NCBI GenBank assembly: GCA_020161615.1
Contig: JAIUPD010000011.1
Coordinates: 62,001-126,000 of the forward strand
Length of the DNA: 64,000 nucleotides
Direction: 5' to 3'
Origin: Pseudomonadota bacterium
GTDB lineage: Bacteria; Pseudomonadota; Alphaproteobacteria; Rhodobacterales; Rhodobacteraceae
In this document: positions 31,943-35,548 of the stretch, in pieces
Layout of the letters: every line of letters starts with the position of its first letter
How positions within the stretch are numbered: position 1 is the first letter of the stretch
Notes under the pieces: model-generated
Seen by the model: only the letters and a program-made list of their open reading frames with translations
Databases searched by the model: none
What the model was told of the DNA's origin: nothing
Made by a program: the position numbers and the translations under genes

Positions 31943-33142
31943 TCAGACCAGGGCGAAGACGCCCTCGCGCACCAGACGGCGCAGCATCACCGCCTGCCCC
32001 GCCTCGTCGAGGTCGCCCGCCAACTCGCCCACCGTGACCCGATCCTGCCGCATCGCGTCGCGCAGGCTTTCTTCCACATGGGCAGGGAAAGCGATCTCGG
32101 TGCCATAGATGCCCAGCACCACCTCCTCGCCCACCACACCGATGGCATAGATCAGGTCGGGCCGGCGCTCCAGCACCACGCCAGGCTGCACGGCGCCCGC
32201 GTCGAAGGTCTGGAACAATTGCCCGGGCACCACCGGCACCCGGCGGCTGCGGAAATCATGGGCATAGAAATCGAGGGTCCGGTCCGGCTCGATCCGCTCG
32301 GCCGCGCGGGCCAGAAGGTCGCGGAAGATCTGCCGCGCCTCGGTCCGGTCGAAACCGTCCACGGCATGCCCCGGCGGGATCGCCTTGCGGAAGGCGGGAT
32401 CGACCAGCGCCAGCTGGTTGACCGCATCGACGATCAGGTCGATCCAGCGCGGGGTCAGCAGGCCGGTGGTGATGTGCAGCGACAATTCCTCGGTCGCGCG
32501 CGCGTCATGCACGACGCCGCGCGGCACATAGCACATGTCACCGGGATGCAGCGTGAAGGTGTCGATCAGCGCGCCGGCCTTGAACCCCTCGGGCTGGAAG
32601 GCCTGGCTGCGCAGCGGCAGTTCCAGGTCCGAACTTTCGTAGATGTTCCATTCCTTCGAGCCCGCCACCTGCAGGACAAAGACATCGTGGCTGTCGTAAT
32701 GGGTCTTGAACCCCTGCGAGCCTTCGGGCGTGAAGTAGATGTTGGTCTGCAGATCGACGTTGAACACCGTCTCCATCGAGCGGCAATAGGCCGCCAGCGC
32801 CGCCACCCGCTTCTGCAGGCCCGGCAGCACGATGGTCGCCCCCTCGTCGAAGAGCCGCGCCGCGCGTACCGGGTCGATGAAGCCCGACGGTGTCTGGAAC
32901 TCCTCGGCCGGGATCCCCTTGCCAGAGCGCACCATCTGCATTTCCTCGCCCGGAATCATTTGCTGCGTCAGCACCCGGTCAATTTCCGCCACGGACAAAA
33001 GGCTAGAGAAATAATCGGGATTATCGCGCCGAATAACGAGGTGCTTCTTTTCGAAATAGTCGACAAAAAAACTTTGTGAAGTCAGGGGCGCAATGACGCT
33101 CTCAAAATCAACCGGAGCGGGTGAATCCTGATTGTCTTTCAC
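31943..33142 (-). CDS. Cupin-4/JmjC-type 2-oxoglutarate oxygenase
   Basis: 399 residues from a GTG at 33142 with GGGAG 6-7 nt upstream. Residues 145-215 hold the metal triad of the cupin-4 family: H148-x-D150 in KTHYDSHDVFVLQVAG and H212 in PRGVVHDA, the spacing seen in YcfD/RoxA-type enzymes that hydroxylate a residue in ribosomal proteins. The rest is a helical dimerisation/winged-helix-like region. The frame stays open upstream through the repeat array of the opposite gene; that extension is Pro/Arg-rich shadow. It is divergent from three Tat-exported repeat proteins with 103 bp between starts. Its protein substrate is unknown; those repeats are my candidate. Confidence 0.85.
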   Translation of the reverse strand: MKDNQDSPAPVDFESVIAPLTSQSFFVDYFEKKHLVIRRDNPDYFSSLLSVAEIDRVLTQQMIPGEEMQMVRSGKGIPAEEFQTPSGFIDPVRAARLFDEGATIVLPGLQKRVAALAAYCRSMETVFNVDLQTNIYFTPEGSQGFKTHYDSHDVFVLQVAGSKEWNIYESSDLELPLRSQAFQPEGFKAGALIDTFTLHPGDMCYVPRGVVHDARATEELSLHITTGLLTPRWIDLIVDAVNQLALVDPAFRKAIPPGHAVDGFDRTEARQIFRDLLARAAERIEPDRTLDFYAHDFRSRRVPVVPGQLFQTFDAGAVQPGVVLERRPDLIYAIGVVGEEVVLGIYGTEIAFPAHVEESLRDAMRQDRVTVGELAGDLDEAGQAVMLRRLVREGVFALV

Positions 33143-33181
33143 GAAAAACTCCCTTTTTTGGGGGCGGCCTTCAGGGTATTC

Positions 33182-33211
33182 TTGACCCGAAACGAAACCT
33201 GCCCCTACGCT
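33182..33211 (+). promoter_or_regulatory. Candidate promoter of repeat gene A
   Basis: TTGACC at 33182-33187 and TACGCT at 33206-33211, spaced 18 bp, lie in the 103 bp gap between the divergent oxygenase and repeat genes. The -10 is weak, so this is tentative. Confidence 0.3.
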
Positions 33212-33245
33212 CTGCCAATTAGTCACGAACGGGAGGTCGTGTGCA

Positions 33246-34328
33246 ATGGCCGACGAGTCGAAAAGACCCCGCAAGACATTAAGTGACGACGAGATTCGAA
33301 GCAGAAGCGCCCTTGGACGGCGCTCCGTGCTGCTGGGTGCCGCGGCTGGCGTCGCGACCCTGGCCCAGACCAAGGTCGCCGGCGCCCAGACGGGCCTCAC
33401 CGACTCGGATAGTGGCCCCGGAGCCGACCCCGCAGGGAACGGGCGCGGCGGCGGTGGTCGTACGGGCCTCACCGACTCGGACAGCGGCCCCGGCGCGGAT
33501 CCCGCAGGGAATGGGCGTGGCGGTGGTGGCCGTACGGGCCTCACCGATTCGGACAGCGGGCCCGGCGCGGATCCTGCAGGGAACGGCCGCGGCGGCGGCG
33601 GTCGCACGGGCCTCACCGATTCCGACAGCGGCCCCGGAGCCGACCCCGCAGGGAACGGTCGTGGTGGTGGCGGTCGTACGGGCCTCACCGACTCGGACAG
33701 CGGCCCCGGCGCGGATCCCGCAGGCAACGGGCGCGGCGGCGGTGGTCGCACGGGCCTCACCGATTCGGATAGTGGCCCCGGAGCCGACCCCGCAGGGAAC
33801 GGGCGCGGCGGCGGTGGCCGTACGGGCCTCACCGACTCGGACAGCGGCCCCGGCGCGGATCCCGCAGGGAACGGTCGTGGCGGCGGTGGCCGTACGGGCC
33901 TCACCGATTCGGATAGTGGCCCCGGCGCGGATCCCGCAGGGAACGGGCGCGGCGGCGGTGGTCGTACGGGCCTCACCGACTCGGATAGTGGTCCCGGGGC
34001 GGATCCCGCAGGGAATGGGCGTGGCGGCGGTGGTCGCACGGGCCTGACGGACTCGGACAGCGGCCCCGGGGCGGATCCGGTGGGCAACGGGCGTGGAACG
34101 GCCGGGCGCGGCACGGGCTTGACCGATCAGGACACCGGCCCCTCGGCCGATCCGGTTGGCAATGGCCGTGGCAGCAGCGGACGCCCGCCGCCCAGCGGCG
34201 GCAAGGTGCCGGGCGTCGGCGCGTCCGACCAGGATTCCGTGATTTCGGATCCGCCGGGCTCTCGCACCGGGGGCGGCGCACCGATGCAACCGGGCCTGCC
34301 GCAGCGCCCCAGCAAACGCTGGCGCTGA
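33246..34328 (+). CDS. Tat-exported tandem-repeat protein A
   Basis: 360 residues. Residues 1-24 are polar (MADESKRPRKTLSDDEIRSR...); residues 25-48 form a twin-arginine signal (GRRSVLLGAAAGVATLAQ, then AGA before Gln), pointing to periplasmic export in folded form. Residues 50-290 are ten nearly identical 24-residue repeats of G-L-T-D-S-D-S-G-P-G-A-D-P-A-G-N-G-R-G plus GGGGRT. A degenerate eleventh repeat and a tail ending SKRWR follow. GGGAGG lies 9 nt before the ATG. The antisense frame is also open, but the signal peptide and two paralogues show this strand is real. The D-x-D-x-G parts resemble calcium-binding loops. No family recognised. Confidence 0.85.
   Translation: MADESKRPRKTLSDDEIRSRSALGRRSVLLGAAAGVATLAQTKVAGAQTGLTDSDSGPGADPAGNGRGGGGRTGLTDSDSGPGADPAGNGRGGGGRTGLTDSDSGPGADPAGNGRGGGGRTGLTDSDSGPGADPAGNGRGGGGRTGLTDSDSGPGADPAGNGRGGGGRTGLTDSDSGPGADPAGNGRGGGGRTGLTDSDSGPGADPAGNGRGGGGRTGLTDSDSGPGADPAGNGRGGGGRTGLTDSDSGPGADPAGNGRGGGGRTGLTDSDSGPGADPVGNGRGTAGRGTGLTDQDTGPSADPVGNGRGSSGRPPPSGGKVPGVGASDQDSVISDPPGSRTGGGAPMQPGLPQRPSKRWR
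33393..34115 (+). repeat. 72 bp tandem repeat array in gene A
   Basis: Ten units starting at 33393, 33465, 33537, 33609, 33681, 33753, 33825, 33897, 33969 and 34041 (the last with one extra codon). The first nine encode the same 24 residues. The DNA differs among units mostly at third positions, for example gac/gat, ggc/gga/ggg and cgc/cgt codons. Confidence 0.95.
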
Positions 34329-34491
34329 CGCACCCGGCCCCTTGATCCAGAGGCGGGCGGCCCTGCACGGGCCGGCCGCCTTTCCCTGATACAGCCCGCC
34401 GCCCTCAGCGCGACGGCCCTACGACGACCCTTGGCCGCCATGCGGCCCAGACCGGACGACAGCACTTCTACCCCCTTACCACGAGAGCATC

Positions 34492-35052
34492 ATGGCGAAC
34501 GCCGACGATCCCAAGAAGAAGACACTGACAGAATCCGAGATTTCCACCCGTTCCGGGATCGGCCGCCGGTCGCTGCTGCTGGGCGCTGCAGCCGGTGTCG
34601 CGGCCCTGGCGCAGAGCAAGGGCGCCGGGGCCCAGACCGGGCTGACCGATTCCGACAGTGGCGCCAACGCCGACCCCGCCGGCAACGGCCGCGGGCCGCG
34701 CTCGGGCCTGACCGATTCCGACAGCGGCTCCAGCGCCGATCCGGCGGGCAACGGCCGCGGCGCCCGTTCGGGCCTGACCGACTCGGATAGCGGCGCCAGC
34801 GCCGATCCCGCCGGCAATGGCCGCGGCGGCGGCCGCACCGGGCTCACCGATTCCGACAGCGGCGCCAATGCCGATCCGGCAGGCAATGGCCGTGGCGGCG
34901 GCGTCTCGGGCCTCACCGACCAGGATTCGGGCGGCATGGCCGATCCGGGCGGCAACGGCCGGGGCCGGGGCGGCAGCCGGACCGGCATGACCGATGCCGA
35001 TGCGGGCGCGACCGCCGATCAGGCCGGTTACGGCCGCGGCCCGCGCCGCTGA
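34492..35052 (+). CDS. Tat-exported repeat protein B
   Basis: 186-residue paralogue of gene A. The N-terminus MANADDPKKKTLTESEISTR is followed by a twin-arginine signal (GRRSLLLGAAAGVAALAQ, AGA). Six repeats follow: four GLTDSDSG-x3-ADPAGNGRG-type units with different linkers (PRS, ARS, GGRT, GGVS), then GLTDQDSGGMADPGGNGRG and GMTDADAGATADQAGYGRG. Repeats are 22-25 residues. They have diverged more than in gene A. It lies 163 bp after gene A in the same direction. Confidence 0.85.
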   Translation: MANADDPKKKTLTESEISTRSGIGRRSLLLGAAAGVAALAQSKGAGAQTGLTDSDSGANADPAGNGRGPRSGLTDSDSGSSADPAGNGRGARSGLTDSDSGASADPAGNGRGGGRTGLTDSDSGANADPAGNGRGGGVSGLTDQDSGGMADPGGNGRGRGGSRTGMTDADAGATADQAGYGRGPRR

Positions 35053-35203
35053 GCCCGCACCGCTGAGACAGGCGAGGCCGCGCCGCGCCAGCCCCGGGCG
35101 CGGCCTCGCCCAACCCCACGCACCCGTTGCGAACTGCTTGACCGGTAACGTTTTTGCCGTCAAACTTGGCGGATATACTCATCATATTTGGAAAGTGACT
35201 CCC

Positions 35204-35548
35204 ATGTCGGACGCAGCCAAGCCCGGATCCAAGCCGGGAAAAGCCACGCTCACCGAAGCTGACATCTCCACCAGCCGAGGCTTCGGCCGCCGCGCCTTCT
35301 TGCTCGGCACCTTCGGGGGCACGACTGCCCTGGCCGGCTGCGTCACCACCGGCGTGACCGATGCCGATCCGTCGGACCCGGTCGGCAATGGCCGCGGTGG
35401 CAGCCGGGTGGTGGTCGTGCAGCGCACTGGCATTACCGACCGCGACCCCTCGGACCCGGTCGGCAACGGCCGCGGGCGCCGCGCCTGCACCGACAGCGAC
35501 GTCGGCCCCTATTACACCGACCCGGTTGGCCGCGGCCGCCATTGCTGA
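35204..35548 (+). CDS. Tat-signal repeat lipoprotein C
   Basis: 114-residue paralogue. MSDAAKPGSKPGKATLTEADI is followed by a twin-arginine signal GRRAFLLGTFGGTTALAGC; the LAGC lipobox predicts a Tat-exported lipoprotein, unlike A and B. Repeats are GVTDADPSDPVGNGRG, GITDRDPSDPVGNGRG and CTDSDVGPYYTDPVGRGRHC. Cysteines also occur at the start of repeat 3 and as the last residue. The gene ends 4 bp before the rluD stop, convergent. Function unknown; a membrane-anchored partner of A and B is one possibility. Confidence 0.82.
   Translation: MSDAAKPGSKPGKATLTEADISTSRGFGRRAFLLGTFGGTTALAGCVTTGVTDADPSDPVGNGRGGSRVVVVQRTGITDRDPSDPVGNGRGRRACTDSDVGPYYTDPVGRGRHC

Follow-up and report, generated by a model that had tools for sequence, protein, structure and literature searches.

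A JmjC/cupin-4 oxygenase found with twin-arginine repeat proteins in Alphaproteobacteria and myxobacteria: a candidate two-part system for modification of secreted proteins

Introduction

To our knowledge, a substrate is known for few bacterial oxygenases of the PF08007 (JmjC_2, cupin-4) family. Described here is one such oxygenase, encoded beside three repeat proteins in a 64,000 nt stretch of a Rhodobacteraceae genome (Pseudomonadota bacterium, assembly GCA_020161615.1, contig JAIUPD010000011.1, positions 62,001 to 126,000 of the forward strand). This whole stretch is termed the window. The ribosomal oxygenases NO66 (RIOX1), MINA53 (RIOX2) and YcfD/RoxA each modify a single residue in a ribosomal protein (PMC9994133, PMC5862935, PMC6006756; these and all other papers are cited from excerpts of their text). 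The window enzyme shares with them the PF08007 JmjC domain, the iron-binding triad and a helical plus winged-helix-like C-terminus. Unlike the ribosomal oxygenases, it is associated with putatively exported repeat arrays in which His is nearly absent, and a Ser that contacts the substrate is replaced by Gly.

FIH is a JmjC hydroxylase that acts on the cytosolic ankyrin repeats of many proteins. The present pair would resemble it in having a JmjC hydroxylase act on a recurring motif, the difference being that here the repeats come from a dedicated neighbour gene, are exported and are probably unstructured. AspH lies outside the PF08007 family. It hydroxylates Asp and Asn in EGF-like repeated domains (PMC6817910) in the endoplasmic reticulum, whereas the modification here, if our reading is right, takes place in the cytoplasm before export. 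Bacterial JmjC peptide hydroxylases are already known. BipG and PbsQ are JmjC or cupin-like enzymes that act on ribosomally made peptides (PMC12707348, PMC12257519), and BipG, a JmjC peptide gamma-Orn hydroxylase, belongs to a nine-gene pathway with an arginase, a radical SAM (rSAM) enzyme, an MNIO and a protease (PMC12707348). BipG is compared here by its description only; unlike that pathway, the present system has two recurring gene kinds, long repeat proteins and export of the twin-arginine translocation (Tat) type.

In the genomes sampled, the oxygenase is found almost only together with the repeat family, usually beside it. No description of this pairing or of the repeat strings was found in the open PMC literature, and the findings suggest a two-part system for chemical decoration of secreted proteins that is undescribed there. 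The genes of the window are as follows (aa, amino acids).

31943..33142, minus strand: JmjC_2/cupin-4 2-oxoglutarate and Fe(II) oxygenase, 399 aa, GTG start
33143..33245: divergent intergenic region of 103 bp, oxygenase to first repeat gene
33246..34328, plus strand: repeat protein 1, 360 aa, Tat-type signal, 11 canonical units by reading (translation, ATG 33246)
34492..35052, plus strand: repeat protein 2, 186 aa, Tat-type signal, 6 units by reading (translation)
35204..35548, plus strand: repeat protein 3, 114 aa, Tat lipoprotein-like (translation)

Results

Three genome samples were searched with profiles: 60 genomes of relatives, 385 Alphaproteobacteria drawn evenly, and 235 genomes of the phylum of G074, taken as Myxococcota. 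The first two share genomes, among them the carriers G000, G038 and G050 and others of the same class. Only the best few candidates per genome were scored and misses are possible. Among the relatives, repeats and oxygenase occur in the same 11 of 60 genomes and are adjacent by coordinates in all 11. Repeats are found in 10 of the 385 Alphaproteobacteria, all 10 with an adjacent oxygenase of at least 352 bits, and a close oxygenase is present in 2 of the other 375 genomes, giving 12 of 385 in total. The oxygenase profile reaches 52 genomes of this sample at E 1e-20, with a gap in score between 352.9 and 188.2 bits. One of the 2 additional genomes with a close oxygenase, G328 (L130:2967-3833, plus strand), encodes a diverged Tat-type protein directly upstream of this homologue, with some ten short repeats of the type TGQTDNDSTDRSGQGRNM.

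The Myxococcota sample has the oxygenase in 14 genomes at E 1e-20, eight of which score at least 411 bits, the next lower score being 268. All seven genomes with repeats (of 235) have a close oxygenase, compared with 1 of the 228 others. The profile hits place repeats and enzyme side by side in four of these seven; next to the enzyme, G611 has a repeat protein of short units, and in G074 one short motif is found there. Fisher tests, uncorrected for kinship, give 3e-12 for the relatives, 4e-18 for the Alphaproteobacteria and 1e-12 for the Myxococcota sample. Chance adjacency is rejected on this co-occurrence in three samples.

A scan of species genomes with the repeat alignment gave 87 relatives, the best 80 of which were kept and represent 77 distinct loci. 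The oxygenase lies within 6 kb in 50 of these. For 11 of the other 27 repeat loci, the same assembly carries the enzyme at another locus; the remaining 16 are spread over 15 genomes, 14 of which have the enzyme elsewhere (E 3.5e-122 or better). A repeat motif is present within 1.5 kb at 11 of these 14 elsewhere-enzyme loci, in five of the 11 by a single motif. Several repeat genes per genome are common, some at distant loci, with one close enzyme gene. The initial annotation had named repeat genes commonly lacking an oxygenase as the finding that would refute a link between the two; altogether 26 of the repeat loci are in assemblies with the enzyme elsewhere, and only 1 of 77 is in a genome where no enzyme was detected. 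Near-identical loci with both genes (L080/L103 and L075/L076) are also seen in metagenome-derived genomes assigned to Alphaproteobacteria and Anaerolineae, and are probably misbinned contigs.

In 46 of the 50 loci holding both genes the repeat gene is directly upstream of the oxygenase and on the same strand. The remaining four are Pararhodobacter loci in which it is divergent, as in the window. The gap between the genes has a median of 145 bp and is at most 300 bp in 45 of 50 (enzyme starts taken from the alignment). A functional link, previously drawn from a single adjacency, now has strong support from the co-occurrence in three samples, the adjacency and the upstream position of the repeat gene.

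The labels also cluster strongly in a tree of 98 PF08007 proteins (77 from repeat genomes, 19 from genomes without repeats, 2 unclear), with 5 changes compared with a mean of 19.3 in shuffles. Several long branches meet in this tree. A single clean clade of repeat-genome enzymes was sought and not obtained.

A number of observations weigh against treating enzyme and repeats as one system. Seven non-repeat rows stand on open forks among the enzymes of repeat genomes (Streptomyces clavuligerus, two cyanobacterial proteins, a Rhizobium and two Paraburkholderia plasmid proteins, and G621), and a single origin of the repeat-genome enzymes is neither shown nor excluded by the tree. Distant homologues are found, with no repeats, in 40 more of the 385 Alphaproteobacteria (at most 188 bits) and in 6 more of the 235 genomes of the Myxococcota sample (at most 268 bits), and the score cut that separates close from distant enzymes was drawn after the scores had been seen. 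A close enzyme is present in G252 with no repeat protein seen in the 4.5 kb of its contig examined, and in G554 with no repeat seen in 9 kb. The enzyme of G583 is not beside repeats within the 7 kb examined, and G065, a metagenome-derived genome, has repeats and no enzyme detected. The proposal made below itself rests on sequence and predicted structure.

The repeat unit was compared over 121 repeat open reading frames (ORFs) with 718 TDxD starts, which come from 76 of the 77 related loci (L102 has no ORF under the rule). ORFs were chosen that display at least three TDxD and two D..G.G[RHK], and the position figures are somewhat favoured by this choice. The canonical unit is T-D-x-D-x-G-x-x-x-D-P-x-G-x-G-R-G. 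When each fixed position is freed in turn with all others required, Asp2, Asp4 and Asp10 are each present in 595 of 595 units, as is Gly15. Gly6 (595/604) and Gly13 (595/630) follow, with Arg16 found in 595 of 625 units and replaced in 30. Of 595 units, 483 have Pro11 and 249 (42%) have Asn14. With a looser anchor, only [TS]DxDxG fixed, the count is 661/667 for Asp10 and 631/667 for Arg16. When DxxGxGR alone is fixed, 658 units are found: 48 are short ones in which the Asp residues are closer, and 604 of the other 610 carry both Asp2 and Asp4. In 653 canonical 17-residue units His occurs 30 times and Lys twice.

One pair departs from this pattern. In G377:C15 (L131) a Tat-type protein with the leader TTLSDDDIVS has short repeats, SDYDPNDPIGGG / SDTDPVDPIGEG, that contain no Arg. 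This Arg-free paralogous repeat protein (L131:4840-5232, minus strand) is found beside a full oxygenase homologue of 443 bits (L131:3539-4756, minus strand).

A twin-arginine motif with a hydrophobic stretch precedes the repeats in 110 of the 121 repeat ORFs, and is present in the first 100 residues of 106 of 3444 control ORFs taken from these loci under an identical rule. Applied to the first 75 or 150 residues, the rule matches 89 and 121 of the controls. A looser rule gives 117/121 versus 727/3444; of its four misses, three have an RRSFL on inspection and the fourth is a fragment at a contig edge. Searched with a loose pattern and with no control, 51 of the 121 show a lipobox-like motif. 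The repeat proteins thus carry export-type Tat signals, as predicted from their N-terminal sequences. A leader of the TLTxxEIxT type precedes the twin arginine in some Rhodobacterales and Myxococcota repeat proteins (the window, L073, L092, L104 and L137) but was not seen in the Maricaulis and Erythrobacter-group members examined. The leader motif sometimes reads TDSD, like the repeat itself.

The three window proteins show these features (positions from the translations unless noted).

33276..33302, plus strand: leader motif TLSDDEIRS, N-terminal to the twin arginine of repeat protein 1 (by reading)
33318..33323, plus strand: twin arginine of repeat protein 1
33390..34037, plus strand: nine identical 24-aa units TGLTDSDSGPGADPAGNGRGGGGR in repeat protein 1
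34564..34569, plus strand: twin arginine of repeat protein 2
within 35204..35548, plus strand: units of repeat protein 3, two short (TDxDPSDPVGNGRG) and one that is one residue beyond the canon
35288..35293, plus strand: twin arginine of repeat protein 3
35330..35341, plus strand: lipobox-like LAGC of repeat protein 3

GRR[SA] and then a hydrophobic stretch are present in all three by reading. The 103-bp gap and the three divergent twin-arginine paralogues given in the initial annotation are borne out by the ATG at 33246 and the translations. At the protein level the nine 24-aa units of repeat protein 1 are all the same, yet any two of them differ at 2 to 14 of their 72 bases (mean 7.9 over 36 pairs); all differences are therefore synonymous. 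Since the units vary only synonymously, the repeat genes appear to be real coding sequences, and the repeat unit is evidently under selection. Repeat protein 2 has a match of 88% identity in G010. It yields no confident fold (AlphaFold2 mean pLDDT 39.7, from a shallow alignment of 8), and the earlier premise that Tat exports folded proteins is thus unsafe here. The family spans Maricaulis, the Erythrobacter group, Pararhodobacter and myxobacteria, and scans of the three window members against Pfam and NCBIfam give nothing above the profile cut-offs. A search for solved relatives with one Maricaulis repeat protein (L034, the sole query) gave none at E up to 5.

Association alone cannot separate a substrate from a partner, and the repeat proteins might instead be metal carriers or regulators of the oxygenase. 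The D-x-D-x-G-x-x-x-D spacing, which we take to resemble calcium-binding loops, would suit such a role. However, the repeat proteins carry Tat signals and the oxygenase shows none by reading of its translation, so that they would separate once made. The frequent presence in a genome of several repeat genes, some of them distant, with a single close enzyme gene also speaks against a partner. The chance of a partner role is taken to be small.

The enzyme gene has the following regions.

within 31943..33142, minus strand: JmjC domain, helical region and C-terminal winged-helix-like region

The majority of Pararhodobacter orthologues start with MKD at the same position as the window oxygenase. The JmjC_2 (PF08007) match scores 95.1 bits against a curated cut-off of 22, and the alignment of homologues has H148, D150 and H212 in every row (35 of 35), in agreement with the HxD...H iron oxygenase first annotated. 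The predicted structure shows the layout of the ribosomal oxygenases (ROX), with JmjC, dimerisation and winged-helix regions. Its nearest solved structures are NO66, MINA53 and YcfD, with a full-length match and the closest fold in NO66/MINA53. By its catalytic residues and predicted fold the window protein is a PF08007 JmjC/cupin-4 oxygenase. Antisense to the repeat array, the frame of the oxygenase remains open and produces a spurious 723-aa ORF (window 31943-34114, minus strand), which could be called by an automatic annotator.

As the closest solved structures are ribosomal oxygenases, the enzyme could be one of these, merely travelling with the repeat genes. This is very improbable. A close homologue is found in just 12 of the 385 Alphaproteobacteria and tracks the repeats rather than the ribosome, the placement is operon-like in 46 of 50 loci, and the Ser that contacts the substrate His is Gly.

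In MINA53/NO66 the target His is held by Tyr167/Tyr328 and Ser257/Ser421 (PMC9994133). By a hand count of the printed alignment, the Tyr corresponds to invariant Y136 and the Ser position to invariant G227; of the two contacts of a histidyl hydroxylase of this type, the Tyr is kept and the Ser is not. E. coli RoxA likewise has Gly at the Ser position. The Gly would fit repeats in which His is almost lacking, and leaves the choice between Asp and Arg undecided. His, at 30 over 653 units, is rejected as the site. Asn had been listed with Arg and Asp among the candidate sites and is disfavoured as a universal one, being present in only 249 of 595 units; Asp and Arg remain. An argument for Asp10, from the NO66 His preceding P-F-G-G-G, was dropped, as the printed peptide has His216 after GGGN (PMC9994133).

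Hydroxylation of the Arg in each G-x-G-R-G would follow YcfD on uL16, with the Asp residues serving metal binding or structure only. YcfD acts on an Arg beside a Gly-rich stretch (PMC5862935, where the R. marinus uL16 peptide is printed). Under the same rule, however, Arg is replaced in 30 of 625 units and each Asp in 0 of 595, and under the looser rule the figures are 36/667 for Arg and 6/667 for Asp10. In G377:C15 a full homologue of the enzyme neighbours short repeats that have no Arg. When His was exchanged for Arg, peptides were not oxidised by NO66 and did not inhibit MINA53/NO66 (PMC9994133). Modification at the Arg of G-x-G-R is accordingly rated somewhat unlikely. Asp has the fewest exceptions among the possible targets, Arg being next, and it is favoured because it is least variable and because the G377:C15 short repeats contain no Arg. 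One of the three nearly invariant Asp residues, giving beta-hydroxy-Asp, is our tentative first choice, at a little under an even chance judging from this conservation. Other residues or another oxidation share the remainder. Two considerations oppose this choice: the invariant Asp may be kept for metal binding and not as a site, and the Arg is a serious rival by analogy, the repeats holding GNGRG much as YcfD meets its Gly-rich stretch.

The locus also recalls ribosomally synthesised and post-translationally modified peptides (RiPPs): multi-core precursors might be hydroxylated, exported and cut at Arg/Gly into peptides that act on other cells. The tandem units are near-identical, a leader-like TLTxxEIxT segment is present in some lineages, and JmjC relatives are found inside rSAM, LanM and YcaO clusters. 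In R. etli such a relative is encoded beside a radical SAM/SPASM gene, in Pseudanabaena beside genes for LanM and an NHLP secretion protein, and in Paraburkholderia beside YcaO/TfuA with three cupins. The five plasmid stretches with JmjC relatives show no repeat motif; the plasmid JmjC proteins of L107, L109 and L110 are candidate RiPP tailoring enzymes. Domains like the RiPP recognition element (RRE) are fused to PF08007 in fish and algae, and bacterial homologues occur in RiPP-like contexts (PMC12710340). An RRE is a winged helix in which three strands are followed by three helices. The predicted C-terminus of the window oxygenase has strands 333-337, 340-345 and 348-353 and helices 354-365 and 380-392; the third RRE helix was not seen.

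With the two families excluded, no third gene shared among the 77 loci was found within about 6 kb. One ORF cluster, with members at 5 of the 77 loci, extends over three of the six lineage groups. No maturation protease or dedicated exporter common across lineages was seen within this distance (the rest of the genome was not searched), and no shared immunity gene. Of the RiPP-like idea in the initial annotation, a modifying enzyme beside a precursor-like gene stands, as in RiPP clusters; a strict RiPP pathway, with protease release of the core and a dedicated exporter, is unsupported because no third gene is shared. The Tat-type signal on the chain itself, the lipobox-like motif in 51 of 121 ORFs, and the lack of the leader motif in the Maricaulis and Erythrobacter-group members examined also speak against multi-core precursors, which we regard as improbable.

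Discussion

The reading preferred here is that the two parts form one system, a dedicated ROX-type hydroxylase and its exported repeat substrates, modified before Tat export. We consider this probable as a whole; the reaction, site, timing before export and purpose are inferred. The JmjC protein would be a dedicated protein hydroxylase with the repeat proteins as substrates, working in the cytoplasm, which supplies Fe(II) and 2-oxoglutarate. A hydroxyl would be placed on a residue that recurs in every unit, most likely at C-3 (the beta carbon) because the ribosomal-oxygenase relatives act so. The chain would be modified before leaving the cell, which is possible because the Tat route is post-translational. 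It may then be released to the periplasm or anchored as a lipoprotein; both fates are proposed because there seem to be paralogues of each kind. As to purpose, a guess from the D-x-D-x-G-x-x-x-D spacing is that the acidic repeats, once hydroxylated, would probably either bind a metal ion or make up a matrix at the surface.

In its most specific form the proposal is that at least two groups, Alphaproteobacteria and myxobacteria, turn one or more Asp in each D-x-D-x-G-x-x-x-D unit into beta-hydroxy-Asp before Tat export, giving a ribosomally made metal-binding polymer that is possibly oxygen-gated, because the enzyme needs O2. So detailed a version is speculative and unlikely to hold in every part. 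If true, it would be a protein counterpart of the beta-hydroxyaspartate siderophores, membrane-anchored or periplasmic.

Genome evidence alone here names a substrate family for one PF08007 group. With as many as eleven nearly identical target units per protein, detection by mass spectrometry should be straightforward. If the two-part reading is true, bacteria would have a dedicated hydroxylase for secreted repeat proteins, with a logic like that of collagen or EGF-domain hydroxylation, and there would be a reason for the Tat export of seemingly unstructured chains, namely time for cytoplasmic modification.

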